Source: a virus
Reading direction: 5' to 3' (one strand)
Length of the DNA: 43,160 nt
Virus record (IMG/VR): IMGVR_UViG_3300046690_000686
Span: 1-43,160 of that record
Shown: in pieces, positions 1 through 43,160 of the stretch
Layout of the letters: each line of letters opens with the position of its first letter
How positions within the stretch are numbered: position 1 is the stretch's first letter
Position numbers and translations under genes: made by a program
The notes under the pieces: model-generated
The model's database searches: none
The model's input: only the letters and a program-made list of their open reading frames with translations
Told to the model about the DNA's origin: nothing

Positions 1-126
1 GCGCCATTCGTCGAGCGCGGCCACGTAGCCCTTGCCGAATCCGTACGCCTCGATGCTCGTCTTCTTGTCGCGGTCGCAGATGAAGCGCCACAGCATCGCC
101 TCGGCAGCGTCGAGCGTATCGATCAC
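1..126. repeat. Terminal direct repeat, left copy
   Basis: These 126 bases are identical to 43014-43139. An exact direct repeat at both contig ends is what an assembler leaves when it runs once round a circular or circularly permuted molecule. A coding frame continues in register across the join, which supports a circle of about 43,013 bp. Confidence 0.95.
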
Positions 127-426
127 CAGCGTCTGATACTCGTGCGGCTCCGAGATGAGCGAGTCGATCGCATCGATGACGTCGCCCCATCCGTCGGGTC
201 GAGGTAGCCGATTGGTGTCGATCCGGGCGGTGCCGTCGCTCTCGGGCTCAAGGAAGATCGGTCGCGTCGCACTCGCCGCAAACGTTGACTTGCCGATGCC
301 CTCGACGCCGTAGAGCAGGATCCGGTCGGGCACTTTGACGGTGCCGGTGACTACGTTGGCGACGCTCATACGGCGCGACTTGGTCTCGGTCGGTGGCGCA
401 TTCGCCGGTTGTCTTACACTAGCCAT
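1..426 (-). CDS. Sak4-like single-strand annealing ATPase, N-terminal 142 residues (gene continues at 43013)
   Basis: This is the 5' part of a 264-residue protein split by the linear ends; the rest is 43013 down to 42645. The ATG at 426 overlaps the stop of the upstream nuclease by 8 bases. A Walker A motif GVEGIGKST lies at residues 40-48 and a Walker B-like LVID at 100-103. Length and motifs fit the RecA-like AAA_24/Sak4 family of phage recombination ATPases, which anneal single strands in recombination-dependent replication and work with a cognate SSB. An SSB-like gene follows directly (42055-42648) and an exonuclease-like gene precedes it, giving a full recombination cassette. The assignment rests on motifs and context. 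Confidence 0.85.
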   Translation of the reverse strand, partial: MASVRQPANAPPTETKSRRMSVANVVTGTVKVPDRILLYGVEGIGKSTFAASATRPIFLEPESDGTARIDTNRLPRPDGWGDVIDAIDSLISEPHEYQTLVIDTLDAAEAMLWRFICDRDKKTSIEAYGFGKGYVAALDEWR

Positions 427-33506: not shown

Positions 33507-34283
33507 ATGCGCATCGCCCTGCTCAATATCTCGGCGGCGCGCAATGACGATTTCGAGGTCATGGCGAAGGCGCTGACGATCTATCTGTCGCGCGACGTCG
33601 GGCCGGCCTGGGAGCGTAGCGAGTCAGAGGTCAAATTCATGCCGGGCCTTCAAGAAGCGCCGGCGGGATGGAGCCCGCTGGTCATCTTCGAGGCACCAGA
33701 CCAGCCGGGCGTGCAGGGGTATCACGACGTCGACGAGCAGGGCCGCCCCTACGGGCGCGTCTTTCGTAGCTGCATCCCTGGCGGCGCGGTGCTGTGCGAT
33801 CCCACGGGAAAAGGCGCGGCCATTGCGCCGGTCGCCGCGCATGAGGTGGCCGAAATGCGCCTCGATGAGCTCGCCAATTCCTGGTTTGACGGTCCTCTTC
33901 GTGACCCATACACCGGCCACGACTACAGCCAGGTGGCGGGCGAGATCGGCGACCCCGTGCAGGAGCTGACGTATCCCATCTCCGTCGACGGTCAGCTCGT
34001 CGACGCGTCAAACTTCGTCTATCCCGCATACTTCAATCGCCGCGCCGCCACCGGCGAACGCTTCGATCACCTGCGGGCACTGACGGCACCGCTGACGCTG
34101 GCTCCTGGCGGCTACGTCATCGTGCGCGACGCCAAGGCCGAGCGGCAGGTGTTCGCGCGCCTCTTCGGTCGCGCCCGCCATGCCAAGCCGACCAAAATCA
34201 CATCGCCGACGCCGCCGGCGGAGTGGCGAGAGGAGATGAAGAAGCTGCGCGGCGGGCGCACCAAGCGGCGGCTGGCTGGCTGA
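33507..34283 (+). CDS. HEVAE-motif protein, putative zinc metallopeptidase-like (258 aa)
   Basis: The central block VAAHEVAEMRLDELANSW resembles the 'HEVLEM..DP' motif of a predicted metalloprotease family; a histidine and glutamate appear but the second histidine of HEXXH is absent. The GYVIVRDAKAERQ and a basic C-terminus (KKLRGGRTKRRLAG) follow. A role in cell-wall or surface-protein processing during release is possible; catalytic activity is not shown. Confidence 0.5.
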   Translation: MRIALLNISAARNDDFEVMAKALTIYLSRDVGPAWERSESEVKFMPGLQEAPAGWSPLVIFEAPDQPGVQGYHDVDEQGRPYGRVFRSCIPGGAVLCDPTGKGAAIAPVAAHEVAEMRLDELANSWFDGPLRDPYTGHDYSQVAGEIGDPVQELTYPISVDGQLVDASNFVYPAYFNRRAATGERFDHLRALTAPLTLAPGGYVIVRDAKAERQVFARLFGRARHAKPTKITSPTPPAEWREEMKKLRGGRTKRRLAG

Positions 34284-34957
34284 TGTCGCGCGCAAGCCGC
34301 TTGCGCCTGCTCGGCATGGGGACGCATGCGCGCATGAATACGCCCATGATGCGACCGGTTCTCGAGCGTAACGCCTGGCGCTTCATCGCGGGCATGTCCA
34401 TCGACGCCGATGGAGCGCCCCACGCGTATGCTCTCAACGGTTCGGGCAAGATCGGCCTCGACAACATCGCCAACGCCGGCACGCCGACGCGCTGGTGGGC
34501 CCTCGCCTGCGATGGTACGGGGAAGCCCTTTATCCAGGGACCGAACGACCCAGCCCCAGGCTACGCCGTCTCACAGACGGCTCTGCGGGACATGACGAAG
34601 GCGCTCAAGGACCCACGCGGCTACGTCGACGCTTCGACGGTGCCCTACGTGGTCTCGCCGCCCGAGCTGCTGGCCGCTGGGATACGGCTCGGCGACCTGG
34701 CGACGGTCAAATACGCCGACAAGGTGGCGCACGCCATCATCGCCGACATCGGCCCGTATGCGCACTACGGCGAAGGCTCGCCGGCGCTCGCTCGGCTGCT
34801 CGGCATACCTGACTCGCCGCGCTCGGGTGGGGTGACGAGCGGGGTCACGTACATTTTCTATCGGGGCTCGCGCGCCGTGCCGGCGTGGCCCCGCGACCCG
34901 GTGGAATTTCAGGCGGCCGCCGCTCGCCGGTATGCGTCGTGGGCGAATGTGGCGTGA
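34283..34957 (+). CDS. GH75-like glycoside hydrolase, candidate endolysin
   Basis: The 224-residue product shows a series typical of GH75-like proteins: AYALNGSGKIGLDNIANAG, WWALACDGTGKP, DPAPGYAVSQTAL, DPRGYVDASTVPYVVSPPEL, then LGDLATVKY and AIIADIGPYAHYGEGSPALA. The DIGP and GEGS blocks include the likely catalytic acids. GH75 enzymes cut beta-1,4 glycosidic bonds (chitosan); in a phage this suggests cell-wall glycan cleavage at lysis. It has no signal peptide and lies after the holin-like gene. The ATG overlaps the previous stop. Confidence 0.75.
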   Translation: MSRASRLRLLGMGTHARMNTPMMRPVLERNAWRFIAGMSIDADGAPHAYALNGSGKIGLDNIANAGTPTRWWALACDGTGKPFIQGPNDPAPGYAVSQTALRDMTKALKDPRGYVDASTVPYVVSPPELLAAGIRLGDLATVKYADKVAHAIIADIGPYAHYGEGSPALARLLGIPDSPRSGGVTSGVTYIFYRGSRAVPAWPRDPVEFQAAAARRYASWANVA

Positions 34958-35121: not shown

Positions 35122-35158
35122 CACCCATGGCCAGGGCGGTGTGAAGCTGGAAGACCCG

Positions 35159-35809
35159 ATGCTTGCCCGCGCCTTGGCCATCGCCGCCATCCTCCTCGCC
35201 GCTTCAAGCGCGCGCGCGGACGAGACCAGCGCCGCCAAGGAGATCTACGAGCGCGGCGTGCGCTACTACAACCTCGGGCAGTTCGAGGACGCGCTCGACG
35301 CCTTCCGGTCCATCTACTCGATCGACCGCCCGCAGCTGCTGTTCAACATCGCCCAATGCCAGCGGCAGCTGAAGCAGTACGAGGCCGCGGCGCGCAGCTA
35401 CCACGCCTTCCTCGCAAGCAGCCCGGGCAGTGACGATGCGGCGACGGCGGCGCGCATGGCGCAGGAGATGGACGCTCGGACGACGGCGGCCCAACTGCCG
35501 CCCGCTGCGACGAACCCAGCGCCCGCCGGGCCAAGAGCTCCGGCTCCGGCGCCGGCCGATCGCCGCCGGCCGCTGCGACTCGCCGGCATCGCCGCCGGCG
35601 GCGTCGGGCTCGGCCTGGTCGCCGCCGGCATAGCCTTCGCCGTCGTCTCTGGGCAGGCCGGGGAACAGGCGTGGCATGGCGCCGCCTACGACTACGACGC
35701 CGACCAGCGGCGCGGTGGCTTCCGCTCGGGGGCCATCGCTAGCTTCGTGATCGGCGGGGTCGCCGTCGCCGCCGGTTCCACCCTGTGGATCCTGGGGCGG
35801 CGCCGATGA
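35159..35809 (+). CDS. TPR-repeat protein with signal peptide and C-terminal TM segments, host-like
   Basis: The 216-residue product starts with a signal peptide (ALAIAAILLAASSARA-DE). It then has a tetratricopeptide-like block (AKEIYERGVRYYNLGQFEDA, then LLFNIAQCQRQLKQYEAAAR), a Pro/Ala linker, and two hydrophobic segments (IAAGGVGLGLVAAGIAFAVV and IASFVIGGVAVAAGSTLWIL). This layout is common among myxobacterial cell-envelope proteins and rare in phages, so it looks like a captured host gene. The ATG at 35159 follows GGAAG; GTG at 35141 is an alternative start. Confidence 0.75.
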   Translation: MLARALAIAAILLAASSARADETSAAKEIYERGVRYYNLGQFEDALDAFRSIYSIDRPQLLFNIAQCQRQLKQYEAAARSYHAFLASSPGSDDAATAARMAQEMDARTTAAQLPPAATNPAPAGPRAPAPAPADRRRPLRLAGIAAGGVGLGLVAAGIAFAVVSGQAGEQAWHGAAYDYDADQRRGGFRSGAIASFVIGGVAVAAGSTLWILGRRR

Positions 35810-36207
35810 GAGCGCTGGCCCTCGCGCTGGTGCTCGTCGCCGGCTGCACCGAGCCACCACGCGACGGCGCACTCGCGTGCGGCTCGAACGCGGCGCACCC
35901 CTGCCCCGACGGATATGACTGCGTCGAGGGCCGCTGCTACGTCGTCAGCCACGTATTCGACATGAGTGCGGCGATGGAGTCACACGACATGACGCTCCCA
36001 CCCTCGCCGTCGTCGGATATGGACGATCCCGATCAGGGACAAGGATGCGGGACCGTAGGGCAGCCCTGCTGCATCTACGCGTGCACGGTCGGGCTGGTCT
36101 GCACGTTCAGCGATATCAGTTGCGGTCTGCCGGGATTCTGTCGCGCGAGTTCTGAAGCAGCGGGCTACCTGTGTAGCGATGGCTCGTCGTGTGGGCCGTG
36201 CCCGTAG
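35806..36207 (+). CDS. Phage-encoded cysteine-rich lipoprotein 2
   Basis: The 133-residue product begins MRALALALVLVAGC, a short signal ending in a lipobox (V-A-G-C). The mature part has CPDGYDCVEGRC near the start and many cysteines, and it ends SDGSSCGPCP. This C-terminal end matches lipoprotein 1 (SDGFCAPCG). An acidic, Met/Ser/Asp-rich linker lies between. It overlaps the TPR gene (ATGA), so both are co-transcribed. It is likely a moron affecting the cell surface. Confidence 0.75.
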   Translation: MRALALALVLVAGCTEPPRDGALACGSNAAHPCPDGYDCVEGRCYVVSHVFDMSAAMESHDMTLPPSPSSDMDDPDQGQGCGTVGQPCCIYACTVGLVCTFSDISCGLPGFCRASSEAAGYLCSDGSSCGPCP

Positions 36208-36694: not shown

Positions 36695-36704
36695 ATCGTG
36701 TCAG

Positions 36705-36790
36705 TGCCGGGGACGGGAATCGAACCCGTACGCCGCTTGCGCGGCCTGGGATTTTAAGTCCCATGCGTTTACCAATTTCGCCACCCCGGC
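36705..36790 (-). tRNA. tRNA-Leu(UAA)
   Basis: On the minus strand the 86 bases fold as a class II tRNA: acceptor GCCGGGG/CCCCGGC, a D-arm with GGTAAACGC, anticodon arm GGGACTTAAAATCCC with UAA in the loop, a long variable arm (GGCCGCGCAAGCGGC) and T-arm ACGGGTTCGATTCCCGT. The discriminator is A, and CCA is not encoded. The gene is complete and could be active. Its anticodon arm is copied in the adjacent attP-like region. Confidence 0.95.
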
Positions 36791-36792
36791 TT

Positions 36793-37005
36793 GATATCCC
36801 CCCGGTGACGTCGAAAACCGGGGGAGAATAATCCGCCAACTATTTGACTTTCATGGTCTATTTTTCGTAATACTGGGGATTTTAAGTCCCCGTTGAATTT
36901 AATGATTTCGCGTACTTGGAAGCGAAATAACACCCCGAAACGGCCTTTTCTCTCCTCGGGAGTCCCACGATATCCCCCCGGTCCGGGGGGATATTTTCCC
37001 CCGGT
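36793..37005. other. Probable attP: core with paired arm-type sites
   Basis: The core candidate is GGGGATTTTAAGTCCCC at 36875-36891, a 5-bp stem with a 7-base loop; 15 of its bases equal the anticodon arm of the tRNA-Leu at 36748-36762. Around it are repeats of CCCCCGG: GATATCCCCCCGGT at 36793-36806, AACCGGGGGA at 36816-36825, GATATCCCCCCGGT again at 36969-36982, its inverse CCGGGGGGATAT at 36983-36994 and TTCCCCCGGT at 36996-37005. Two sites left and three right of a core next to the integrase gene is the layout of a tyrosine-recombinase attP. The palindrome at 36970-36994 followed by TTTT might also end transcription. Confidence 0.75.
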
Positions 37006-37054: not shown

Positions 37055-38212
37055 CTACTTGCTGAGCTTGGAAAGCATGTCAGCGGTCGCTTGCGTGGAC
37101 GAGCGGACGTATTTGTCAGTCGTCGACAAGTGCAAGTGGCCGGCGAAAAACTTGAGGGTAGCAACGGCGGTGCCCGGGCTGTTGCCGAGCTCGCTGAGGC
37201 GGAAGTGGCGCAGGTGGTGGCGCGTGACGGCGGGCAGGTCCAGGCGCGCGGCGGCGGACTTCAGCGCGCCGATGTGATTGTGCTTGCCGAAGATCAGCGC
37301 GGTGGGCAGGACGGGGCCCTGGCGCTTCAGCTCGCGGTGCATCTCGGCGAGCACCGCGTATGCCTCATGCGCCAGGCTGATGACGCGCTCCTTGCCGTTC
37401 TTGGAGACGCTCGCGCGGATGGTCATCTGCTTACGGCGCAGGTCGAGGTCACACCACCTCAGCGTACCGCACTCCGCGTCCGAGCGGAGCGCCTGCGCCC
37501 AGGCAACCGTGAAGTATTCGCGCGCCGGCATGCCGCGGCGGTGGTTGTGCCGGTCGGGCACCTCTGCCAGCAGCGCCTCGACGTCCTCGGGCGTGCAGTT
37601 GGGCGGGGTGTAGTGGCTGCGCTGGTCGACCGATTCGAACACGGGCAGCTCGCGGATGTGACCGGCGGCCTTCGCCCACTTGAGGAACCGCCGCGCTGAG
37701 ACTTGCTCGCGGTGGACTGTGTTCGACTGCGGGTTGGGCTTGTTCGACCGCGGCGCGATCACGCGGCCATCGCGCTCGTACGCGCGGAAGAGCGTGGGCG
37801 ACTTGAGCCGCTCCTGCGCCCAGGCATCGAGCGCGCCCGGCTCGAGCATGTCCCAGATGCTGGCGAAGCGTGGCAGGAAGTGCAGCTCGAGGTGTTGCTT
37901 GATCTTGCGCGTGTACGACTGGCGCAGCTGGCCAATGGCGACCTGGCCATCGAGGTATTCGAAGTAGGCGGTGACGAGCTTGGCGAGGGCGTCGGGCGGC
38001 TCTACTTTGACCCGTTCTTGACGGGGCCGTACCACAGGACGCCCGAGGACAACTTTTGCGTGGTAGTCGTCGAGCCACGCCTGGGCGGCCTTCTCGTCGT
38101 CGAGACCGGTCGAGGAGCGATACCGCTTCCCCTTCCATTGGAATTCGTATTGGTAGATCCGTCCGTGATCGGCGTCGAGCTTGACGCGCGGTACACCTGT
38201 TCTGCGACCCAT
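37055..38212 (-). CDS. int: Tyrosine recombinase (integrase)
   Basis: The 385-residue protein has an arm-binding N-terminus (YQYEFQWKGKRYRSSTGLDD), a core-binding helical part and a catalytic domain with ALRSDAECGTLRW (first Arg), SKNGKERVIS (Lys), TRHHLRHFRLSELG (H-x-L-R-H), AGHLHLSTTDKYV (G-H and the Tyr nucleophile). It would insert the phage at a host attB and excise it with the excisionase. The ATG at 38212 was chosen from AGG just upstream; an earlier in-frame ATG at 38308 lies inside xis. The stop is close to attP. Confidence 0.93.
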   Translation of the reverse strand: MGRRTGVPRVKLDADHGRIYQYEFQWKGKRYRSSTGLDDEKAAQAWLDDYHAKVVLGRPVVRPRQERVKVEPPDALAKLVTAYFEYLDGQVAIGQLRQSYTRKIKQHLELHFLPRFASIWDMLEPGALDAWAQERLKSPTLFRAYERDGRVIAPRSNKPNPQSNTVHREQVSARRFLKWAKAAGHIRELPVFESVDQRSHYTPPNCTPEDVEALLAEVPDRHNHRRGMPAREYFTVAWAQALRSDAECGTLRWCDLDLRRKQMTIRASVSKNGKERVISLAHEAYAVLAEMHRELKRQGPVLPTALIFGKHNHIGALKSAAARLDLPAVTRHHLRHFRLSELGNSPGTAVATLKFFAGHLHLSTTDKYVRSSTQATADMLSKLSK

Positions 38213-38373
38213 GCCTGTAAATCCTCCAGCCGAAATCGTCGATTGCGCCCGCGCCCGACGTACGGCAGCCCCTCGTCGAGGTAGCGTCGCAACACTTTCT
38301 TGCTGCACGCAAGAAATTTGCAGGCGTCGTCGGGGGTGAGTAGGCCCGGGATGCCTTCAGCCAGGTAGACCAT
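38002..38373 (-). CDS. Excisionase-like helix-turn-helix protein
   Basis: The N-terminal half (LLTPDDACKFLACSKKVLRR, then YLDEGLPYVGRGRNRRFRLE) is the winged-helix pattern of excisionase/MerR-like proteins. The second half is Ser/Thr/Arg-rich low-complexity and reads out of frame over 211 bases of the integrase 5' end. It likely bends attP DNA and directs excision. The ATG is close to the stop of the preceding gene at 38373. Confidence 0.75.
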   Translation of the reverse strand: MVYLAEGIPGLLTPDDACKFLACSKKVLRRYLDEGLPYVGRGRNRRFRLEDLQAWVAEQVYRASSSTPITDGSTNTNSNGRGSGIAPRPVSTTRRPPRRGSTTTTQKLSSGVLWYGPVKNGSK

Positions 38374-41959: not shown

Positions 41960-41962
41960 CGC

Positions 41963-42047
41963 GCGATCGGCAGGTGTCGAACCTGCGCCCCGGGACGGGA
42001 GATGCGTATGGCGACGCGAACACCCCGGGGATCCTTCCTTCGACCGC
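41963..42047 (-). other. tRNA-like structured element in the only sizeable operon gap
   Basis: The 3' part has a T-arm-like hairpin (GCAGG, loop TTCGACA, CCTGC at 41986-41970). The ends, GCGGTCG (42047-42041) and CGATCGC (41969-41963), pair as a 7-bp acceptor-like stem with one G-U. The region between holds CCCCGGGG and a CCCG/CGGG hairpin but no normal D-arm or anticodon arm. The total length, 85 bases, is that of a class II tRNA. It fills almost all the gap between the SSB-like and the small Cys-rich gene. A decayed tRNA or another structured RNA is possible. Confidence 0.35.
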
Positions 42048-42648: not shown

Positions 42649-43139
42649 ACCCCTTCCTTGTGGGCGAGCTCGGCAAAGGTCGCGTAGTCAAGTGCAAACG
42701 GCTCGGTCAGGCCATATCGGTTCTTGGCGTCGAAGGCGTGCGAACGATCGACGTGAACCTGGCGAACGCCCGTCGAAACGCCCTTCGCCTTCGACTTCTC
42801 GCTCTCCTTTGCCGTCAACGTCTCGTAGTTGGTGAACAACACTGCATCGCACCATTCGCGCAGCATGCCGCCCGCGCGCGGGTGCAGCTTCATCTCGTAG
42901 CGGTCGTAGTCGTCACCCTCGGGATTCTTGAACGTCTTGATCCACGAGTGAGCGATCAGGATGATGTCCATCCGGCGCATGCGGCGCAGCTTCTCGAGAC
43001 GCCCGATGAACACGCGCCATTCGTCGAGCGCGGCCACGTAGCCCTTGCCGAATCCGTACGCCTCGATGCTCGTCTTCTTGTCGCGGTCGCAGATGAAGCG
43101 CCACAGCATCGCCTCGGCAGCGTCGAGCGTATCGATCAC
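42645..43139 (-). CDS. Sak4-like single-strand annealing ATPase, C-terminal part
   Basis: This is the second half of the gene that starts at 426 on the minus strand. The 126 bases 43014-43139 are the repeat of 1-126, so only 42645-43013 (122 codons plus stop) add new sequence. It has IILIAHSWIKTFKNPEGDDY, which looks like the sensor strand of RecA-like ATPases, and the end VRQVHVDRSHAFDAKNRYGL, found in phage AAA_24 proteins. The stop overlaps the SSB-like gene's GTG. Confidence 0.85.
   Translation of the reverse strand: MIDTLDAAEAMLWRFICDRDKKTSIEAYGFGKGYVAALDEWRVFIGRLEKLRRMRRMDIILIAHSWIKTFKNPEGDDYDRYEMKLHPRAGGMLREWCDAVLFTNYETLTAKESEKSKAKGVSTGVRQVHVDRSHAFDAKNRYGLTEPFALDYATFAELAHKEGV
43014..43139. 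repeat. Terminal direct repeat, right copy
   Basis: Identical to 1-126. It marks the overlap of a circular assembly; removing it gives a circle of 43,013 bp. Confidence 0.95.
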
Positions 43140-43160
43140 GAGTATCAGACGCTGGTGATC
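43139..43160. repeat. Terminal fold-back (inverted copy of 121-142)
   Basis: The last 22 bases are the reverse complement of 121-142. The sequence thus reads forward through the repeat to GATCAC and then turns back. This is most easily explained as an assembler walking into the opposite strand at the palindromic GATCAC/GTGATC, not as part of the phage. Confidence 0.75.

Follow-up and report, generated by a model that had tools for sequence, protein, structure and literature searches.

The virus whose genome forms the window analysed here (IMG/VR virus record IMGVR_UViG_3300046690_000686, positions 1 to 43,160; 43,160 nt in all) is a temperate, contractile-tailed phage that probably practises tRNA-dependent lysogeny, in which a short attP core recombines with the anticodon arm of the host tRNA-Leu(UAA) gene and the phage's own tRNA-Leu(UAA) replaces the function that is lost. 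The mechanism belongs to a known kind: a 2024 study described tRNA-dependent lysogeny in phages of Actinobacteria, with cores of 8–17 bp (Guerrero-Bustamante & Hatfull; PMC10865867), and similar cases have been reported by a Sinorhizobium group (PMC11476347, PMC12429752). We regard the present phage as probably a further case, in which the layout varies.

Since near-identical direct repeats stand at both ends of the window (1-144 versus 43014-43157, 95%), the genome is in effect complete and circularly closed, at about 43.0 kb; the final 24 bases (43137-43160) repeat 121-144 in reverse complement, apparently because the assembly flipped where the terminal repeat ends. Its genes include those for a terminase, Mu-type portal, sheath, tape measure, baseplate J, integrase and excisionase-like protein. 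A candidate cell-wall enzyme related to fungal-type chitosanases (GH75), unusual as a phage lysis gene, is encoded at 34223-34957, and two host-like cargo genes lie directly before the tRNA (35147-36207), one for a TPR protein with a membrane anchor and one for a cysteine-rich lipoprotein-like protein. The tRNA-Leu(UAA), all of whose stems are paired, is the only Rfam-supported tRNA in the phage; a tRNA-Ala(CGC) called by ARAGORN at 41961-42047 lacks Rfam support and is probably false. Coordinates of the features discussed are collected in Table 1.

Table 1. Features of the integration region (positions in the window) and, in the last row, loci in bacterial genomes (genome:contig:positions).
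Feature	Position	Strand	Evidence or remark
Complete tRNA-Leu(UAA), no encoded CCA; proposed replacement tRNA	36704..36790	-	ARAGORN; Rfam 65.7 bits; structure
Anticodon arm of the phage tRNA, 15 nt identical to the attP core	36748..36762	-	
Spacer from attP core to tRNA 5' end, without a terminator-like site in the tRNA's direction	36791..36874	-	
Arm-type-like repeat, left arm	36794..36806	+	
Arm-type-like repeat, left arm, inverted	36817..36829	-	
Proposed attP core GGGGACTTAAAATCCCC (tRNA sense), palindrome with CTTAAAA loop	36875..36891	-	19-nt match to two host tRNA-Leu(UAA) genes
Weak D-arm-like stretch GCGAAATcatTAAA beside the core	36898..36911	-	Not significant alone
Arm-type-like repeat, right arm	36970..36982	+	
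Arm-type-like repeat, right arm, inverted	36982..36994	-	
Arm-type-like repeat, right arm	36993..37005	+	
Tyrosine integrase, 3' end towards attP	37055..38212	-	PF00589 4e-11; phrog_1 9e-28; motif residues R, K, HxxR, H, Y
Excisionase-like HTH_17 protein, overlaps integrase start	38002..38373	-	PF12728 7e-11; TIGR01764
5'-half loci of the mirror form	G367:C1:6488970-6489055 and 6578575-6578613; G382:C265:19633-19673; G043:C72 and C82; G343:C189:15878-15915		

A preliminary description of this DNA had placed a complete tRNA-Leu(UAA) beside an attP-like region whose 17-nt palindrome repeats the tRNA's anticodon arm over 15 identical bases, and both observations hold. Across all 43,160 bases there are exactly two copies of the 15-mer GGGATTTTAAGTCCC, one in the anticodon arm (36748-36762) and one at 36876-36890, the centre of the palindrome GGGGATTTTAAGTCCCC (36875-36891). 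From base composition we estimate that about 5e-5 copies of the 15-mer would be expected in the genome by chance, and, apart from self-matches of the palindrome, nothing else in the genome comes closer to the 17-nt arm than six mismatches. The attP-like character is stronger than had been claimed: five ATATCCCCCCGGT-type repeats of alternating orientation surround the core, two to its left and three to its right, and only two further matches at up to three mismatches, both poorer, were found in the whole genome. Because these five arm-type repeats flank it and a tyrosine integrase gene precedes it, the palindrome is, on its sequence context, almost certainly the attP core. Read in the sense of the tRNA, the order is integrase, right arms, core, left arms, tRNA, and the tRNA, in the same sense, starts 85 nt past the shared 15-mer.

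The sequence does not continue as tRNA beyond the core, as had also been noted. Comparison with the tRNA 3' half gave nothing (it was matched or beaten by 2232 of 3000 shuffles), and on the tRNA 5' side the D-arm similarity beside the core is weak, with 44 of 3000 dinucleotide shuffles and 6% of the genome's 45-mers equal or better. That stretch is possibly a decayed tRNA 5' half, the remnant of a canonical attP; as proof of one it was dropped, being not significant against the shuffles and genomic 45-mers. Judged by the shuffle comparison and by simulated junctions, the core flanks hold too little tRNA to restore the gene at one junction, so that no canonical tRNA-rebuilding attP was found.

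The integrase has no close relative that we could find, the best match being 38% identical. Peptide scans with integrase and terminase against viral contigs, and with integrase against genome contigs, returned no relatives, and tblastn with the integrase found no match in phage records and only weak matches in plasmids. In a tree of 35 sequences the phage integrase falls into a clade of 12 with 98/96 support, and ten of its 11 relatives there lie at a tRNA-Leu gene or a displaced half of one. Eight directly adjoin a tRNA-Leu gene (among them L215, where the tRNA-Leu is partly masked), two adjoin a displaced 3' half of tRNA-Leu(CAG) directly behind the integrase, and the remaining one is at tRNA-Lys; these cases are not all independent, since L163 and L168 are close to each other. 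Outside the clade 2/23 integrases are at tRNA-Leu, a count that, for loci lacking a tRNA, takes no account of possible hidden halves. By the neighbourhoods of its members, then, the clade is specific for tRNA-Leu genes (10/11). A full-length integrase relative in a prophage of G564 likewise sits at tRNA-Leu(CAG), and the prophages with the best terminase matches (G563, G532, G353, G077) showed no tRNA-Leu in the stretches fetched.

The host group is apparently myxobacterial (Myxococcota). The host-group comparison was centred on G004, a 12.2-Mb 'Deltaproteobacteria' genome reached through a search pattern derived from the phage tRNA. No close relatives of the phage were present in viral or phage collections; terminase relatives reach 55% identity in genomes of the class of G343, versus about 26–40% in known phages. 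The best match of the host-like TPR gene is in G343 itself, with TPR relatives in 255/379 genomes of the host phylum, and integrase relatives occur in eight of the 14 genomes of G343's order.

All 14 genomes of that order carry tRNA-Leu(UAA). The preliminary description had asked whether the host has only one such gene; in this likely host order there is one intact copy in each of the seven closest genomes, likewise one per genome across the order. At the level of sequence the attP core is identical over 17–19 nt to host tRNA-Leu(UAA) anticodon arms, and the core with the next two bases is contiguously identical over 19 nt to the gene in two of the 14, G343 and G391. The phage tRNA is up to 87% identical to the host genes of this order, and its outer stem pair is T27:A43, unlike attP and unlike the 14/14 host genes, which have G27; because of this pair the attP core is closer to host genes (up to 19 nt) than to the phage tRNA (15 nt).

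The same order also has tRNA-Leu(UAA) genes severed at exactly this arm. G343 contains a 3' half (C8:7038-7088) that starts GGGACTTAAAATCCCC, and G395 a 5' half (C148:3236-3274) that ends GGACTTAAAA. G395 holds in addition an intact tRNA-Leu(UAA) of different sequence (C79:20558-20642), which stands between a coaBC/dfp-like gene and an integrase remnant; the intact and cut pair possibly represents a completed replacement. A further half tRNA, at G334:C477, was ruled out as a cut gene and is merely a contig end.

We propose that the integrase would recombine the core with the host's single tRNA-Leu(UAA) gene, at its anticodon arm. With only 15–19 bp common to attP and attB, both halves of the host gene would end up without a partner, in the order host 5' half-core-AGTATTACG...phage tRNA at attL and ...ACGCGAAATCATTAAATTCAAC-core-host 3' half at attR. 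The complete tRNA of the phage agrees in isotype and anticodon with the gene proposed to be disrupted, and from its position 85 nt away and in the same sense this spare copy would supply the lost function and keep the host alive. Loss of the host tRNA-Leu(UAA) would be expected to affect many host genes; in another GC-rich group tRNA-Leu(UAA) is dispensable for growth (Streptomyces bldA). Within this scheme we infer the actual attB, the complementation and the use of the promoter. That recombination at the core would break the host tRNA and not rebuild it, as had been predicted, agrees with simulated junctions for four host genes: given the proposed attB, ARAGORN found zero tRNAs at either junction, and the phage tRNA stayed intact. 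The searched collections contained no integrated copy of this phage with attL and attR, and so no host tRNA-Leu(UAA) interrupted by it of the kind the preliminary description had envisaged. The disruption and replacement it put forward nonetheless gains support, indirectly, from the tRNA-Leu-specific integrase clade, the core match of up to 19 nt, the cut tRNA-Leu genes and the junction simulation.

The other possibility raised at the outset was that the phage tRNA is itself the recombination site, an exchange in its anticodon arm leaving two complete hybrid tRNAs, one at each prophage end. The same 15-nt core is indeed present in the tRNA, and both hybrids fold in silico as tRNA-Leu(UAA) with each of the four host genes tried. 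However, the arm-type repeats are placed symmetrically about the intergenic core, with none beyond the far side of the tRNA, and the position of the tRNA immediately beyond the left arm means that it is not the core; pair 27:43 of the tRNA, moreover, deviates from all host genes, and the intergenic core does not. We therefore consider hybrid formation quite improbable. The decay of the intergenic core into a remnant of a canonical, tRNA-rebuilding attP, with the real attP or attB elsewhere, would account for the D-arm-like stretch beside it, but the arm-type repeats, integrase and excisionase-like gene are all intact and the core retains perfect identity over 17–19 nt to present host genes, so that this explanation strikes us as very improbable indeed.

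Slightly better placed, though still improbable, is the view that the two copies of the anticodon arm are functionally unrelated, with the tRNA serving lytic growth through codon supply or escape from tRNA-cutting defences, the attP merely using the same gene family and the host surviving otherwise. Roles in translation or counter-defence are common for phage tRNAs according to the cited literature. Against this, the phage has a sole Rfam-supported tRNA, and TTA codons are very rare both in its genes (8 of 10,382) and in sampled host ORFs (11 of 27,174, about 1 per 2,500); the codon demand of the phage is therefore no explanation for the tRNA. Its anticodon loop is that of the host, with no visible change that would evade an anticodon nuclease, and both the identity of isotype with the attP core and the adjacency of 85 nt would have to be coincidence.

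For tRNA-dependent lysogeny, the reading we prefer, the arrangement of the region suggests a further step. After integration the junction would run from the host promoter through the host 5' half, core and spacer into the complete phage tRNA-Leu, and because no terminator-like site lies in that direction the host tRNA-Leu promoter would read into the replacement tRNA. On sequence grounds we tentatively suggest, with rather less than even confidence, a hand-over coupled to integration: the host promoter and 5' half may drive the phage tRNA like the native gene, possibly only once the phage is integrated, and the T27:A43 pair may protect that tRNA from the phage's own integrase.

Other loci met in the scans deserve record. 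At several (Table 1) the displaced fragment is a 5' half, cut just past the anticodon loop, and not the usual 3' half; here the integrase 3' end faces the tRNA 5' end in the same sense. In G367, a single-contig genome, the two ends of such a mirror-form element are about 89.5 kb apart. Because Islander lists 5' fragments at only 159 of 3919 islands (PMC4383910), the host phylum may be rich in this rare form. A viral contig from another sample (L025, around 6778) carries a tRNA-Leu(UAA) 5' half ending GGGGACTTAAAATCCCC beside an integrase-like start, and seems to be an attP carrying a tRNA 5' half. G078:C458 (L148; 1214-1346) has an intact tRNA-Leu(CAA) whose anticodon arm is repeated over 13 nt (CAAAATCCGGTGG) 36 bp further on, followed by an integrase, a layout similar to this phage's in mirror image; broken halves were not found elsewhere in the G078 genome. 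Scanning viral contigs with the bare 17-mer returned mostly ordinary tRNA-Leu genes. The sole record with two 13-nt core copies at gaps of 100–192 nt, L296, is Bacteroidetes-like, has two intact tRNA-Leu genes and was set aside as a different thing.

With the actinobacteriophage systems of Fionnbharth, cluster L and BrutonGaster (PMC10865867) the phage shares a tyrosine integrase, a phage tRNA of the same isotype and arm-type sites around the core and, in the scheme proposed, also an attB overlapping a tRNA at the anticodon and a short core (8–17 bp in those phages) that does not rebuild the gene. At the level of described features, it differs from the actinobacteriophages in host group and in its tRNA-Leu-specific integrase clade. 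The tRNA of Fionnbharth has its own promoter and overlaps another gene (PMC10865867); in the present phage 85 nt separate the tRNA from the core, both read in one sense, and integration would place the tRNA after the promoter of the host. Mycobacteriophage Gaia (cluster X, PMC10865867) encodes the cognate tRNA-Leu downstream of int, as this phage does, and targets a tRNA-Leu with a core too short to rebuild it, as is proposed here; there the tRNA is tRNA-Leu-CAA and the core 8 bp, as against Leu-UAA, a longer core and another host phylum here. Lactobacillus johnsonii prophage Lj965, in the passage of PMC10865867 that cites it, is reported to integrate without tRNA rebuilding and with a cognate tRNA, as is proposed here; it is a different phage in a different host, and the likeness is one of reported features. 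The target class (tRNA, anticodon sub-site) and integrase family are also those of canonical tRNA-integrating islands and prophages (Islander, PMC4383910), and the same-clade integrase relatives are cases of canonical integration at tRNA-Leu. Canonical elements, however, restore the gene and leave one displaced half, whereas here neither simulated junction restores a tRNA.

The prevalence of tRNA-dependent lysogeny outside the actinobacteriophages was described by its authors as unknown (PMC10865867), and we found none in this apparently myxobacterial group in the literature searched. If our reading is true, the strategy occurs in an unrelated GC-rich host group and would be more widespread, perhaps with more than one origin. 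It would also give an otherwise tRNA-poor phage a concrete reason to keep exactly one tRNA, and it suggests a rule by which further cases may be sought: a complete phage tRNA beside an attP core in which nothing but the anticodon arm of that tRNA is repeated.
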